Source: a virus. Taken from it: 30,110 bases of DNA. The number at the start of each line of letters is the position of its first letter. Positions within the stretch are counted from its first letter, which is position 1. Position numbers and translations under genes: made by a program. The DNA lies in the IMG/VR virus record IMGVR_UViG_3300036944_000099, positions 1-30,110 of that record; one strand, 5' to 3'. The notes below the pieces were generated by a model. It did no database searches. It saw nothing but the letters and a program-made list of their open reading frames with translations, and was not told the DNA's origin. Positions 23,202-29,289 of this stretch are shown here, one piece after another.

Positions 23202-23923
23202 AGCAGAGACCCCAGTGCTTTGCGGATTTCCGACGAGACATCGACCCGCTTGATGGACCCCCAGTTAGGGGCGTAGGACGGCTTCCTGACCAAATAGACG
23301 TTGGTCTTGCCGTCTTGGGACCAGACACCATTGAAGAAGAGCTCACGCTCTGCCTTGCGGCGTTCAATGATCTCAGGCGGAGACCGCCAGTTCATGATGG
23401 AGCCATAAGCGACATCAGTCAGGCCACGCATCCAGTGCTTGACCCAATCAGCCCGTGTGATTGCCCCGGTGTTGTAGTCGAAGCTCAGAGCAGCAGCGAA
23501 CTGAGCTTCAGTCAGGGTCTTGCCTGCAAAGGCCTGAAGCACCCGGGGAACATAGACCTTACGCAGACGATCAACGACAGCATCCACGCATTCTTGCATG
23601 GGAGCCGGGTTGTCTTTGTATTTCCTGACGTTGATGCCAGAAGCAGACGTCAGTCCAGCAGACCACGTCTCTACACCGACGCTGTCCTTGTACATCTCTT
23701 GGATGATGGCTTCATGTCCGAAGAGTTCCTGCACAACTTTCACATTGAGCAGGCCGCTGACGTAGAAGTCGGCAACAGGCTCAGGCTTAGGATCATCCAG
23801 AGCCAGAGCAGCGTTGATGAGACGAACATCGGCTTCGAACAGGCCCTTGCCTGTGCGTTCCTGGAGGATTTGACGGACGGCCTTGAAGACCGCCTCGTCC
23901 ACCAACTTATGTTGCGGGATCAT
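23198..23923 (-). CDS. Endolysin, GH24-type lysozyme
   Basis: This 241-residue protein has the T4-lysozyme-family pattern: catalytic-type Glu71 in GHEAIIQ, then YKDSVGVETWSAG with Asp80 and Thr86. A later ALSFDYNTGAI segment and a C-terminal RRKAERELFFNGVW block are both typical of GH24 phage lysozymes. It should cleave peptidoglycan between N-acetylmuramic acid and N-acetylglucosamine. An extra helical region of about 55 residues precedes the catalytic domain. There is no signal peptide or N-terminal anchor, so it needs a holin. Its ATG overlaps the stop of the 143-residue membrane protein (ATGA). N4 gp61, in the equivalent position, is also a muramidase, but I recall it as a different family. 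Confidence 0.88.
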   Translation of the reverse strand: MIPQHKLVDEAVFKAVRQILQERTGKGLFEADVRLINAALALDDPKPEPVADFYVSGLLNVKVVQELFGHEAIIQEMYKDSVGVETWSAGLTSASGINVRKYKDNPAPMQECVDAVVDRLRKVYVPRVLQAFAGKTLTEAQFAAALSFDYNTGAITRADWVKHWMRGLTDVAYGSIMNWRSPPEIIERRKAERELFFNGVWSQDGKTNVYLVRKPSYAPNWGSIKRVDVSSEIRKALGSLL

Positions 23924-24351
23924 TTCTTGATGTCTCCAGCGATGGCTTCAGCCTTGTCATGAGCGGCTTCAGCAGTCTGAGCAGCAGCCGTCGCAGCCGC
24001 TTCCTTGGCATCCACGCCAGCAGCAGCAGCCGTCTTGGCCGTCTCGGTGATGGCCTCGAAAGCCTTGCTGGTGTTCTCGACCTTGTCCTCATCGGATTGG
24101 TTCGCAGCGAAGTGAAAGGAGACGACCATGTTCAGGAAGCCTGTCAGCGAGAACGCTGTCAACAGGGTCTTGAAGAGCTCGACATCCCACAGCTGGGGAT
24201 CATCTTTTGCCATCCACAGCATCCCCACGATGATGGAGATGATGGCCAAGGTCACGAAGTGACGCTCAGCCAGAGGCTTGATCGTGAGATTGATCTTGAT
24301 GACAGGCCACTTGAGGCCTTTGTCCTCAAAGGGGTTCTTGGACGCAGGCAT
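23920..24351 (-). CDS. Two-segment membrane protein, holin candidate
   Basis: This 143-residue protein has two likely membrane segments (about residues 31-48 and 59-82). A long Ala-rich helical tail with alternating charges ends in a Lys pair. It directly precedes the endolysin with a four-base overlap, the classic holin position. N-terminus and tail both look cytoplasmic. The Ala-rich tail of about 60 residues is longer than in common holins. Which of the three small membrane proteins here is the true holin cannot be decided from sequence. Confidence 0.75.
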   Translation of the reverse strand: MPASKNPFEDKGLKWPVIKINLTIKPLAERHFVTLAIISIIVGMLWMAKDDPQLWDVELFKTLLTAFSLTGFLNMVVSFHFAANQSDEDKVENTSKAFEAITETAKTAAAAGVDAKEAAATAAAQTAEAAHDKAEAIAGDIKK

Positions 24352-24362
24352 CAGTATTCTCT

Positions 24363-24665
24363 CTATTGCTTATGGATCAACCGAGTGATCGCTTCGTACA
24401 GCATTGCGTTAATGACGTTGCTCTTTTCCTGCGCTTCACTCAGCCTGTCAACGCTGCGAGTCAGGTCGGACATCAGCTTACCGTCTGCTAGTGCCGCTGA
24501 GATGATAACTGCGTCGGTAGATTGACTTTGAGGCTTCGCCTTTGGCGTAAGTTGGTCAATAAAAGGCTTAATAAACTTGACCACACCCCAGACACTGGAG
24601 ATCGTAATCACTGCTCCGACCACCATGATCTGCATGTGGTCAGGCAATCCTCCAATGTCTTGCAC
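24363..24665 (-). CDS. Single-segment membrane protein with helical tail (holin or antiholin candidate)
   Basis: This 100-residue protein has one membrane segment (about residues 11-32) followed by a helical tail containing Asp, Glu, Arg and Ser (residues 45-98). It lies within the lysis block, between two other membrane proteins. The first possible start is GTG at 24665, with only a weak Shine-Dalgarno. An ATG at 24635 with GGAGG 13 bases upstream would give 90 residues and is also possible. Single-span holins and antiholins look like this. The specific role is unknown. Confidence 0.65.
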   Translation of the reverse strand: MQDIGGLPDHMQIMVVGAVITISSVWGVVKFIKPFIDQLTPKAKPQSQSTDAVIISAALADGKLMSDLTRSVDRLSEAQEKSNVINAMLYEAITRLIHKQ

Positions 24666-24683: not shown

Positions 24684-25139
24684 TTATACTGCGTAGACTT
24701 TGGGGGACTCAGGCTGCTTCAGGCGCTCGTCACGGCTCAAACGTGCGTCAGTTGCGGCACGTCCTACCGAGTACATATCAGCAAGAACGAAGCCGATAAA
24801 GATCGGGAGGAGAACAAATGCTTTCTCCAACCCTAGAGCGAACAACGCCCACACTCCGCTGGACAGTACGGACGTAGCTGCACGGATCATAGGGCTAGGA
24901 ACCCAACCACCGTTCCTCCAGAGTGCCAGCAACCGTACCAAGCTCAGCAGTACAAGCACTGTTCCCCAGAACACATCATCACCCCACTGTCGCATGGGGA
25001 CGAAGGCAGGTTGATCCAGCGTATCGTATGGGATGAACAGGCACAGGCCGATGGCCAGCATGATCCAGCCAAGGCCCCATTCGAGAGCACGCACGCGGAA
25101 GTGAGTCAGAGTGGGAATACGAAGGGTAATCATGGACAT
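24684..25139 (-). CDS. Four-segment membrane protein in the lysis block
   Basis: This 151-residue protein has four probable membrane segments (about residues 20-37, 56-74, 83-104 and 106-122) and a charged C-terminal tail. It is the first gene of the lysis block, 18 bases upstream of the single-segment membrane protein. It is longer and has more spans than a typical holin. It could be a holin, a superinfection-related or a membrane-modifying protein. ATG codons occur at 25139 and 25133; neither has a good Shine-Dalgarno. I do not recognise the family. Confidence 0.65.
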   Translation of the reverse strand: MSMITLRIPTLTHFRVRALEWGLGWIMLAIGLCLFIPYDTLDQPAFVPMRQWGDDVFWGTVLVLLSLVRLLALWRNGGWVPSPMIRAATSVLSSGVWALFALGLEKAFVLLPIFIGFVLADMYSVGRAATDARLSRDERLKQPESPKVYAV

Positions 25140-25908: not shown

Positions 25909-27530
25909 ACGTAGCGACTGAGAGGGGAGAACTCGACCTCTTCCTCCTCGGGATGGAAGATGCCGCCACCTTGTTCGTTGTGGTTCTTATAGTAGTCGCC
26001 TGAAGGAGCATAGGGCTTGAGGAAAGCCAACATCGAGATGGTATCGATGATGTCGTCCTTGCCCTTCAGACCATTCGATGTGGCCAGCCTGATCTGCGTC
26101 ATCATCTTGCCGACGACAACATTCCCAGTCTGGAGCTCTTTCGGGAACCACATGCGCTGAACCTTGAACCAAGGCACGACCATGTTGAACCGGGTGAGCT
26201 TGTTCACCATCGGTCGGATGCCAGGAGCTCCGTTCTTCTCTGACGAAGCCAGATTGAAGAAGGTGTCCCGACGCAGCATCTCTGCCTGTATCCACGGGAT
26301 GAACCCGCCTTGCTGGCCGGTCACTTCGATGCCGACAGCCTGAGGCTTGTAGATGCGGCACAGACGGAACAGATCGTCCATCGTCTTGTCCATCGTCTGC
26401 TTCGCAGCGACACCATCCACCCAGAACCAGTTGCCTGTGGCGTTGTACGCCCAGACGCTGATGACGCTGTCATCCGCCGATTGCTTGTCCGAAGTGGCGA
26501 AGTCGGTGGTGATGTAGAAGTTGTAGTTGAAACGACGAGCGAGAAGTTCGTTCCTGTTGTACCAAAGGATTTCGTGGTCCTGCACAAGGCGGTTCTCTTC
26601 CGACGAAATACGCAACATCAGTTCCTGTTGGAAGGCTTCCACCTTCCCAGTCATGACGGACATCTCGTATTGGTCCTTCACGAACTCATAAGAGAACCGA
26701 TCCTCCCATGCTCCACGGAACTCTTCCTTCGTGCAGGGGAAACGCTCGCACACAGGCCACACGTTCACGTCCCATGCACCCGATTGCACGGCTTCAATCA
26801 GAATGTCTTCGAGGTTGAAGGGCGTTCCGTTGAACACAATCATCCGGCGCTGAGGATCAAGGGCATAGTCGATGCCCTTGTACACAGTGTCCTTGATCGC
26901 TTGCATGGAAGCCTTGGACTTCGCATCGTCATCGGACACGAGGTCATCGAGTACGGCCAGAGTCGGACGCTTACCGAAGATTTTCGTACCCCGGATGCCG
27001 GTCTTTGCACCAAACATCTTCACACCGAGGCGGTGTCCACCCTTAGAAGTGAACTCGATGTAGGCATCAGTGAACTTGACCCCTGCTTCAGGGAGCCAAT
27101 GCTGAAGGAACTCACTGTTCCAATAGCGGTACTCGATGTTCTTCCGTGCCGACTTCACGCCGTTGTCCATCGAGTCAGACACATAGATCATGCCTGTGAT
27201 GTCCCCGAAGCCGGGGATACCACCCATCACTGCGACGAACAGGCATAGGTACTCGAAGAACAGGGTGGTCTTGGCCGCACCACGGAAGCAGAGGTTGGCG
27301 ATGCGTCGGTTCCCCGACACCAGCTTGTCCAGCATCATCAGGTGGATGACGGGGGTCTTGTTCTGCTCACCCTCACTGCCGTTCACCAGTTTGATGAACT
27401 GGAGATACATCAGGGCGAACTCCGAGGGCACATACTTCTCGAAGCCGCTATAATCTACCTCATCAAGCCACTCATCGAGTGTCTTCTTCTCAAGTTCTTT
27501 CTTGAGGTGAACGGCAATAGGGTTGGTCAT
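25905..27530 (-). CDS. terL: Terminase large subunit (ATPase and nuclease)
   Basis: This 541-residue protein is the motor that packages DNA into the procapsid. The N-terminal ATPase has a Walker A-type motif CFRGAAKTT (residues 81-89, with K87 and T88) and a Walker B motif LAVLDDL (191-197). The C-terminal nuclease shows the expected acidic residues: D343 in ITTDFATS, E402 in GIEVTG, and D492/D493 in KDDIID. The length is typical. It corresponds to N4 gp68. The start codon overlaps the stop of the preceding gene as TGATG, and only a weak Shine-Dalgarno is present, so translation is probably coupled. No intein, frameshift or truncation is visible. Confidence 0.95.
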   Translation of the reverse strand: MTNPIAVHLKKELEKKTLDEWLDEVDYSGFEKYVPSEFALMYLQFIKLVNGSEGEQNKTPVIHLMMLDKLVSGNRRIANLCFRGAAKTTLFFEYLCLFVAVMGGIPGFGDITGMIYVSDSMDNGVKSARKNIEYRYWNSEFLQHWLPEAGVKFTDAYIEFTSKGGHRLGVKMFGAKTGIRGTKIFGKRPTLAVLDDLVSDDDAKSKASMQAIKDTVYKGIDYALDPQRRMIVFNGTPFNLEDILIEAVQSGAWDVNVWPVCERFPCTKEEFRGAWEDRFSYEFVKDQYEMSVMTGKVEAFQQELMLRISSEENRLVQDHEILWYNRNELLARRFNYNFYITTDFATSDKQSADDSVISVWAYNATGNWFWVDGVAAKQTMDKTMDDLFRLCRIYKPQAVGIEVTGQQGGFIPWIQAEMLRRDTFFNLASSEKNGAPGIRPMVNKLTRFNMVVPWFKVQRMWFPKELQTGNVVVGKMMTQIRLATSNGLKGKDDIIDTISMLAFLKPYAPSGDYYKNHNEQGGGIFHPEEEEVEFSPLSRYV

Positions 27531-28219
27531 CAGGGGCTCTTGGTCACTGTCCCATCAATGATGAGACCTTGTTCGGCAATCGCCTTAACATCTCCACCCT
27601 CTTCAATGAAAGCTTTCTGTTGTCGGGCAGTTTCCGTCAGCAGGTTGCGAAGTTCAGTCATACCAGACGACTCTTGCACACCAAGATTGATGTTCACTTC
27701 CTTCGCCACAGGCGGAGTGAGGTGCTTCATCAGGCTGTCAGCTGCTGCGACCCGATCCTTATTCAGGGCCGACGTGTCCGTCAGGATTTCGTGGAGGGCG
27801 TTCGCAGCGTCATGGTACTTGCTCTGGTGGAGCACGAACGCAGGGACGATGGTCTGCTGCAAGATGGCCGTGACCAGCTGGCCCTTGTGGTACGCAGCCA
27901 CGAACGAACTGATCTGCTTTGCATCATAGTTCTTCGCCGTCATGGTCCTGATACGATCAGGGAAGGTGAACTTGAACGCATCTTGGTTCGAATGTCCCAA
28001 CAGTTTGTAGGTGACATACGAGACTGCGTTCATGTAGTCCTGCGTCTTGTACTTTCCTTCCAGCAGAACCTTGGTGTAGCTCACGAAGTTGCGTTCGAAC
28101 TCCTCTGCAATGAGAGGATCGGAGGCCATATTGTTCAACTGGTTCACGAACGCAGGCGTTACCGCTGTACGCAGGTGGGCGGGAAGGGCGTTGGCGATCT
28201 CGCCTTGGGTCAGTGCCAC
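27530..28219 (-). CDS. Protein in small-terminase position (N4 gp69 position)
   Basis: This 229-residue protein directly precedes terL with a TGATG overlap. I chose the GTG at 28219 because AGAGG lies seven bases upstream. An upstream ATG at 28312 in the same frame has no such site and would add 31 residues of unrelated-looking sequence across a stem-loop region. The protein is mainly helical, with a basic central part (about residues 45-105) and a charged C-terminal half. A small-terminase role (DNA recognition and start of packaging) is suggested by position. I see no clear helix-turn-helix, so this remains a hypothesis. N4 gp69 is the positional equivalent. Confidence 0.75.
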   Translation of the reverse strand: MALTQGEIANALPAHLRTAVTPAFVNQLNNMASDPLIAEEFERNFVSYTKVLLEGKYKTQDYMNAVSYVTYKLLGHSNQDAFKFTFPDRIRTMTAKNYDAKQISSFVAAYHKGQLVTAILQQTIVPAFVLHQSKYHDAANALHEILTDTSALNKDRVAAADSLMKHLTPPVAKEVNINLGVQESSGMTELRNLLTETARQQKAFIEEGGDVKAIAEQGLIIDGTVTKSP

Positions 28220-28315
28220 GGGGCAACCTCTTCTAATTGCATTTGTATCTAGGCTGGCCGGACGCCATACCAATGTCTGCTGTTCGTTTGGTCTTGGGTT
28301 CCAACGCGACAAGCT

Positions 28316-28359
28316 GAGGCGGGGAGAGGGGACTGGTCATCCCTATACCTCCCCGCCTC
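28316..28359 (-). other. Strong stem-loop between accessory cassette and packaging genes
   Basis: A perfect 11-base-pair GC-rich stem (28316-28326 with 28349-28359) encloses a 22-base loop that can form an inner AGGG/CCCT stem. It lies ten bases beyond the stop of the RyR gene. Neither strand has a T run after it, so it is not a standard intrinsic terminator. It could attenuate, protect a processed 3' end, or mark a factor-dependent stop. Confidence 0.6.
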
Positions 28360-28369
28360 CTTACCTCAT

Positions 28370-28894
28370 TCAATCAATCGGAATGTTGAAGCAAGCCTTG
28401 ACCGTGTTCAAGAAGAGCAGGTCTTTGCTCTTGTCGTGCGCCGAAAGGTCGGCATACGGAACCAAGCAGTGATGCTGCTTCAGTTCAGCATTACGAACAG
28501 GTCCCCAAACCCAGCCCTGCGCCAGCTTCGTGTCACACCACGACTGATGAAGCTCTTCGACCGTGATCTCCGGGTTATCATACACCCGCTTCACGCCGAT
28601 CTTGCAGCTTTCACGGATGTCCGGCGTCACATCATGCCAAGGAAGGGCGATACCTTCCTCATTGTGCGCGATCTGAAGAGCACGGATCACTTCGTGAGCG
28701 ACCATTGCTGCCTGACTGAAGCCCATGTTCAGCCGATCTTCGTTGGCTTTCTGGCCGGTCATGTACCGTTCGTAGGCCTCAGCCGTCGTGACGACGAGAG
28801 TGGGGTTCACCTCGCCGCCCATGATCCGGGCGTCTTGGCCGACCTGAGCGTGAGCGAGCTCAAGGGCCTTCATGCGTGTGGAGATGTCGGACAT
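28370..28894 (-). CDS. RyR-domain protein
   Basis: This 174-residue protein carries a RyR (ryanodine-receptor repeat) domain over about residues 60-170. The signature is clear in ELHQSW (residues 114-119), K123, GWVWGPVRN (127-135), K139, H141/H142, LVPYADL (144-150) and DKSKD (154-158). Upstream, VAHEVIRALQ (65-74) matches the first helix of the repeat. Prokaryotic and phage RyR proteins are mostly uncharacterised; comparative genomics has proposed that they bind nucleotide-derived ligands. The start at 28894 (TGATG overlap with the Acb2/Tad1-like gene, GGGAG upstream) is preferred over an open frame to 28987, which overlaps that gene. Domain identity is strong; function is inferred. Confidence 0.85.
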   Translation of the reverse strand: MSDISTRMKALELAHAQVGQDARIMGGEVNPTLVVTTAEAYERYMTGQKANEDRLNMGFSQAAMVAHEVIRALQIAHNEEGIALPWHDVTPDIRESCKIGVKRVYDNPEITVEELHQSWCDTKLAQGWVWGPVRNAELKQHHCLVPYADLSAHDKSKDLLFLNTVKACFNIPID

Positions 28895-29289
28895 CAGATG
28901 TCTCCCTCGATCCGAGCCGGTTGGAAGATCGCTCGGTTCAGAGCCATGAAGCCCTTCTCCAGATCGGTCTTGGCAATCGCCAGCCAACGCTTGTCGGCGA
29001 GGAAGCTTTCGCCGGACGGAAGCTGATCGTTCATCAGGCCGTCGATGATCCGAAGAAGTTTCTCCTCGGCGTGCTTGTTCTGGTTCACCTGAAGAACGGC
29101 GGCCTCGGGCTGGACGGATTTGTATCCGGCGACGGGCAGTCCCGTATGTTCTCCCTCGGTGGGGAGCTTCAGTTCAGCCAGCACATCGTAGGCCTCTCTG
29201 ATTTCGCTGCTGGTGATGTGGAGCGACACGTCGCCAGCGAGATTGGCACGAGCGACTTGGATCGCACGCTCAACTGTCATCTTGGTCAT
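28894..29289 (-). CDS. Acb2/Tad1-type hairpin-domain protein, candidate cyclic-nucleotide sponge
   Basis: The C-terminal part (residues 53-125) of this 131-residue protein matches the Acb2/Tad1 hairpin pattern: GYKSV (Y56), VNQNK (K72), a charged helix, then RWLAIAKTDLEKGFMALNRA (101-120) followed by Pro124. Characterised members bind cyclic nucleotides (Acb2, anti-CBASS) or cyclic ADP-ribose-type signals (Tad1, anti-Thoeris) and keep them from activating abortive defences. Residues 1-50 are an extra helical region absent from the short Acb2 proteins I recall. The Tyr-Lys spacing here is 16, against 15 in my recollection of Acb2 (Y11, K26). It follows a sigma70-like promoter and is coupled to the RyR gene. 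Family membership is likely; sponge activity is untested inference. Confidence 0.8.
   Translation of the reverse strand: MTKMTVERAIQVARANLAGDVSLHITSSEIREAYDVLAELKLPTEGEHTGLPVAGYKSVQPEAAVLQVNQNKHAEEKLLRIIDGLMNDQLPSGESFLADKRWLAIAKTDLEKGFMALNRAIFQPARIEGDI

Follow-up and report, generated by a model that had tools for sequence, protein, structure and literature searches.

An Acb2-type gene overlapping an RyR-domain gene in an N4-like phage: a recurrent pair and candidate counter-immunity cassette

Main finding

Near the right end of an N4-like phage sequence, a gene for an Acb2-type hairpin protein (gene A) overlaps a gene for an RyR-domain protein (gene B), and this pairing of two anti-immune families is real and recurrent, being found as neighbouring genes and as fusions in unrelated phages. 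The window analysed here is the entire IMG/VR virus record IMGVR_UViG_3300036944_000099, 30,110 bases in length. Genes A and B probably constitute a counter-immunity cassette delivering two signal sponges from one message. The ligands of the two proteins, the sponge mode of gene B and the joint action of the pair are predicted from their families, their sequences and their linkage.

Genomic setting of the cassette

The window carries N4-like (Schitoviridae) late genes, including those for the portal, the major head protein and the large terminase, together with a 3,546-aa ORF that, judged by its size and position, would be the virion RNA polymerase. Gene A (29289-28894, minus strand, 131 aa) is followed by gene B (28894-28370, minus strand, 174 aa), and the sequence confirms the placement and overlap that the initial annotation had given to this ORF pair: at the TGATG junction (28892..28896, minus strand), the TGA stop of gene A (28896-28894) shares one nucleotide with the ATG of gene B (28894-28892). 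A purine-rich, Shine-Dalgarno-like GAGGGAG lies within gene A, a few bases upstream of that ATG, and the TGATG junction is likewise present in the related locus L034. The claim that these are the only genes of the leftward block with no N4 role was overstated. The next gene in the block (27530..28312, minus strand), which is context only and lies outside the cassette, belongs to phrog_2109, of "unknown function", and three more ORFs (24684-25139, 24363-24665 and 23920-24351) gave no convincing family match, PHROGs having been run on the last of these only. PADLOC and NCBIfam searches returned no useful match. Another viral contig, 4.4 kb long, starts within the RyR gene corresponding to gene B (L011:2-133), with 100% identity over 44 aa; a second assembly of the window virus, or a near twin, thus exists.

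Directly after the cassette stands a GC-rich stem-loop (28316..28359, minus strand), defined from an alignment of four relatives and a consensus fold, with an 11-bp outer stem, an inner stem and no T-run. It is conserved in L034, L082 and L035; in L035 it comes directly after the stop of the Acb2 gene, and across the window and these three loci the RyR gene is either located between Acb2 and the stem-loop or absent. All four also share the order of the phrog_2109 gene followed by the large terminase, and the stem-loop probably marks a boundary that sets the cassette apart from the genes on the terminase side.

Gene A is an Acb2-type hairpin protein

Gene A matches the Acb2/Tad1 hairpin family (PF24729, E=4.3e-16, 59.3 bits vs. 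a curated cut-off of 27) over residues 55-123; ahead of this domain lies an N-terminal helical extension, roughly 45-50 aa long, that is missing from its counterparts in L034 and L035. In the PDB, a profile built from 41 relatives matched only two solved Acb2 proteins, p26 (E=1.3e-9) and T4 Vs.4 (E=5.7e-7). Acb2 proteins assemble into hexamers to which cyclic di- and trinucleotides bind. The AlphaFold2 model (pLDDT 86.3) consists of four helices (H6-17, H27-39, H62-86 and H100-122), with which Foldseek retrieved 7uq2 (prob 1.00) and 8h2j/8h2x (prob 0.99) at E-values of 0.03-0.14, modest values owing to the small size of the protein. Gene A Tyr56 and Lys72 align with Tyr11 and Lys26 of p26, which we take to be cGAMP contacts.

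An Acb2/Tad1 hairpin signature had initially been read in this gene. The Acb2 half of that reading holds by Pfam, profile and predicted fold, the last of which matches solved Acb2 proteins only, while the Tad1 half does not. Tad1 presents an N-terminal antiparallel β-sheet ahead of two helices (PMC12043709); the gene A model contains no β-sheet and Tad1 is absent from its Foldseek results. Tad1 was thus rejected on fold as an identity for gene A, which is filed as Acb2-type. These features bear on the proposal that gene A is Tad1-like and shares with gene B a target in cADPR-type (Thoeris) signals, so that protection would be deepened and not broadened. Although Tad1, namesake of the hairpin family, binds gcADPR besides cyclic nucleotides (PMC12043709), and the fusions described below deliver both domains together, the sheetless helical model and the restriction of Foldseek and profile matches to Acb2 make such a same-pathway pair decidedly unlikely.

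Gene B is an RyR-domain protein of the RyDEP family

Gene B harbors an RyR domain (PF02026, E=1.1e-11, 45.3 bits vs. a curated cut-off of 27.4), whose core spans about residues 60-168. Its AlphaFold2 model (pLDDT 91.9) has as top Foldseek matches RyR Repeat12 domains and a bacterial RyR domain, and the clear RyR domain of the initial annotation is therefore borne out by both score and fold. The PF24729 and PF02026 matches remain over their curated cut-offs in a six-frame scan of the whole record, and neither appeared in any of the 14 control genomes scanned (0/14).

That RyR domains bind nucleotide-derived ligands, originally put forward from comparative genomics, now agrees with experiments on phage RyR relatives using 2'/3'cADPR (PMC13232231). 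According to this May 2026 preprint, the phage RyR proteins that make up the RyDEP family overcome Thoeris by hydrolysing or sequestering its signals, 2'/3'cADPR (PMC13232231). The RyDEP of DyoEdafos hydrolyses 2'/3'cADPR by means of the catalytic pair H75/D117, and Gln54 is among the active-site residues that were mutated; of eight homologs tested, six bind 2'/3'cADPR, those of Ruegeria and Pectobacterium phages being nanomolar sponges that defeat Thoeris, and two form no stable complex (PMC13232231), so that gene B will not necessarily bind them. N4-like (Schitoviridae) phages of Ruegeria and Pectobacterium carry RyR genes, which may or may not be the tested homologs H4 and H7.

Gene B H116, W119, H141 and D158 correspond to RyDEP H75, W78, H100 and D117, four positions important for ligand contact or catalysis that are invariant in 41 aligned sequences. 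Gene B C97 stands at RyDEP Gln54; across the same 41 sequences this position holds Ala in 36, Cys in 3 (the window among them) and Ile in 1, and Gln is unique to the RyDEP enzyme. Position 54 is a possible enzyme/sponge marker, and Gln54 may mark the enzyme subtype of RyDEP. With Cys in place of Gln54, gene B is predicted to be a sponge rather than an enzyme, which is also the better guess given that the eight other homologs assayed all failed to hydrolyse the signals (0/8; PMC13232231). The retention of the catalytic pair as H116/D158 would suit a RyDEP-like glycosidase that destroys 2'/3'cADPR and forms an eraser and sponge pair with gene A; however, set against that 0/8 result and the loss of a glutamine that no other aligned member possesses, such an activity is very unlikely.

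Recurrence as adjacent pairs and fusions

Acb2-type and RyR loci were collected from viral contigs and searched in every frame with profiles made for this analysis; the full RyR alignment was too poorly conserved for scanning and trimmed alignments were used instead. While scans of viral contigs with single proteins or with the window's clade gave few relatives, pairs surfaced from viral contigs and after a profile of a second Acb2 subfamily was added. RyR directly adjoins Acb2 in L034 and L082, both at the window's site and each with 16 other ORFs in common with it, through TGATG and GTGA overlaps, respectively. The two are also immediate neighbours in the unrelated contexts of L065, L097, L117, L118-L121, L186 and L383. 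Both gene orders occur, L097 being reversed with an ATGA overlap, and in L112/L113 some 220 nt, in which a short gene may lie, separate the two. The "RyR" of L285, a match both weak and partial, was excluded from the pairs.

Fusions bring the two domains into one polypeptide. Both are over the Pfam cut-off in phage phiCB2047-B (RyR E=3.3e-10, hairpin E=5.4e-8) and in L158 (hairpin E=4.1e-10, RyR E=1.9e-7); in L147 the RyR part is recognised by Pfam and the Acb2 part by the profile built here only. The RyR and Acb2-like parts of L147 are closely similar to those encoded by separate adjacent genes in L383. Shared other ORFs sort the pairs into five context groups, one of which (L065, L097, L113, L117, L119, L121 and L186) is only loosely joined; phiCB2047-B belongs to the Schitoviridae, yet its fusion occupies a different genome region from the window pair. 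By eye, and with no Pfam match, a similar N-terminal segment around "DGYxSxSP..F..GY" is visible in L017:4704-5267, L030:5710-6258 and L097:9375-9989, located ahead of an Acb2 domain in one phage and of RyR domains in two others.

Chance expectation, frequency and counter-cases

The window was left out of the chance test, in which the null placed the partner uniformly in the fetched flank. Under this null, generous because accessory genes cluster, and with the best 80 matches per scan, the RyR loci formed 117 clusters at 90% identity, in which 7 of 9 Acb2 partners were adjacent or fused and 2 elsewhere (P=5e-8); collapse at 80% gave P=1e-4, and collapse at 70% left few events, two of three representatives having the partner adjacent (P=0.009). 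Seen from the Acb2 loci at 90%, again with the best 80 matches per scan, four of five partners were adjacent and one was elsewhere (P=7e-5). The Acb2-RyR linkage proposed from the window thus recurs beyond chance, more weakly at the 70% collapse. Paired clusters are a minority of either family, 7/117 for RyR (about 6%) and 4/120 for Acb2 (about 3%), figures that refer to the best 80 matches kept in each scan and are not population rates. As a control, the genes beside RyR were tallied in 116 dereplicated loci: the three most frequent clusters resemble structural genes (18, 18 and 15 loci), and Acb2 ranks next, as a separate gene in 5/116.

The N4-like L035 has an Acb2 gene at the window's site and its 72.8-kb record lacks RyR altogether, which indicates that the two parts are separable. 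RyR was likewise absent from the whole records of ten named Acb2 phages (L012-L021), no adjacent RyR pair was found among relatives of the second Acb2 subfamily (L236-L314), and in alphaproteobacterial genomes RyR was present in 6/289 with no Acb2 within the 3-kb loci. In one bacterial genome (G202, locus L402), a phage-type RyR ORF lies near an ORF that by eye resembles a patatin-type phospholipase, a region that could be a host defence locus. In Rhizobium phage RHph_X2_26 (L014:4438-5243), an Acb2-family gene is directly downstream of a phage TIR-domain gene.

Small anti-defence genes share accessory slots and may become adjacent without cooperating, an explanation to which the minority status of the pair, the solitary Acb2 of L035 in the window's slot and the varying gene order among phages all lend weight. 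A shared slot alone, however, predicts neither fusions nor one-base overlaps, nor does it sit well with the likeness between the separate genes of L383 and the fused ones of L147, and the spacing is far tighter than uniform placement, generous as that null is for accessory genes; neighbourhood without cooperation is thus unlikely. Alternatively, the domains might have a part in phage regulation as nucleotide sensors, or a role in the virion, as the cassette adjoins packaging genes and elsewhere in phages many RyR genes are found within the structural block. Yet the characterised relatives in both families are immune-evasion proteins, and in the Schitoviridae V17, phiCB2047-B and CB1 the RyR gene is found among replication and nucleotide-metabolism genes, so that a virion role does not dictate where it sits; a non-immune function is most improbable.

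Proposed mode of action and significance

In the favoured reading of genes A and B as a two-sponge cassette, gene A would soak up cyclic di- and trinucleotides and thereby disarm CBASS and possibly cA3-dependent type III CRISPR, while gene B, as a sponge of the RyDEP/RyR family, would soak up cADPR isomers and disarm Thoeris. The start/stop overlap would hold the amounts of the two proteins in step. Broader protection, covering CBASS, Thoeris and type III CRISPR alike, would be in keeping with how the two families are expected to divide the labour, and the repeated occurrence of RyR beside or fused to Acb2 in unrelated phages suggests that the two are packaged as one broad anti-immunity unit. 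More tentatively, and with considerable doubt, the two domains might make up a true bifunctional immune sponge, either as a hetero-complex or, in phages such as phiCB2047-B, as one fused protein, in which cADPR isomers and cyclic oligonucleotides occupy distinct pockets and Thoeris and CBASS are blocked together. Some Thoeris systems reportedly sense capsid protein (PMC12578639), and siting beside late genes could suit a counter-measure to these.

Both families are already known, and we came across no account of them as a paired or fused module in the open-access papers searched, where "Acb2" and "RyR" came together only in an unrelated cardiology review. Phage sponges are usually studied singly; if the proposal is true, phages bundle their defences against alarm signals of different chemistry into a single unit. 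The pair also offers a guilt-by-association test for uncharacterised RyR genes, and phiCB2047-B is an isolated phage with a directly assayable fused protein.

Comparison with known systems

Like gene A, the Acb2 proteins p26 (PDB 8h2j) and T4 Vs.4 (PDB 7uq2) have the hairpin by Pfam, sequence profile and fold, and p26 shares with it the GY motif, the conserved Lys and the RWLAI..T....MA..RA helix. Gene A differs from both in its helical extension, in its overlap with an RyR partner gene and in a ligand role that is predicted. The RyDEP of mycobacteriophage DyoEdafos (gp78) and its sponge homologs resemble gene B in their RyR/Repeat12 domain and the four conserved residues, whereas gene B has Cys at the Gln54 position and a longer helical N-terminal part; the DyoEdafos RyDEP is set within a NARP1 NAD-salvage operon, while the partner of gene B is an Acb2-type sponge. 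The 188-aa SUFG_00048 of Sulfitobacter phage phiCB2047-B also combines RyR with the Acb2/Tad1 hairpin, but as a single protein with RyR first, by comparison with the two genes of the window, where Acb2 comes first. T4, with Acb1 and Acb2, similarly holds two anti-signal proteins in one phage (PMC11722364); both of these act on cyclic oligonucleotides and neither has an RyR domain, in contrast to the pair described here.
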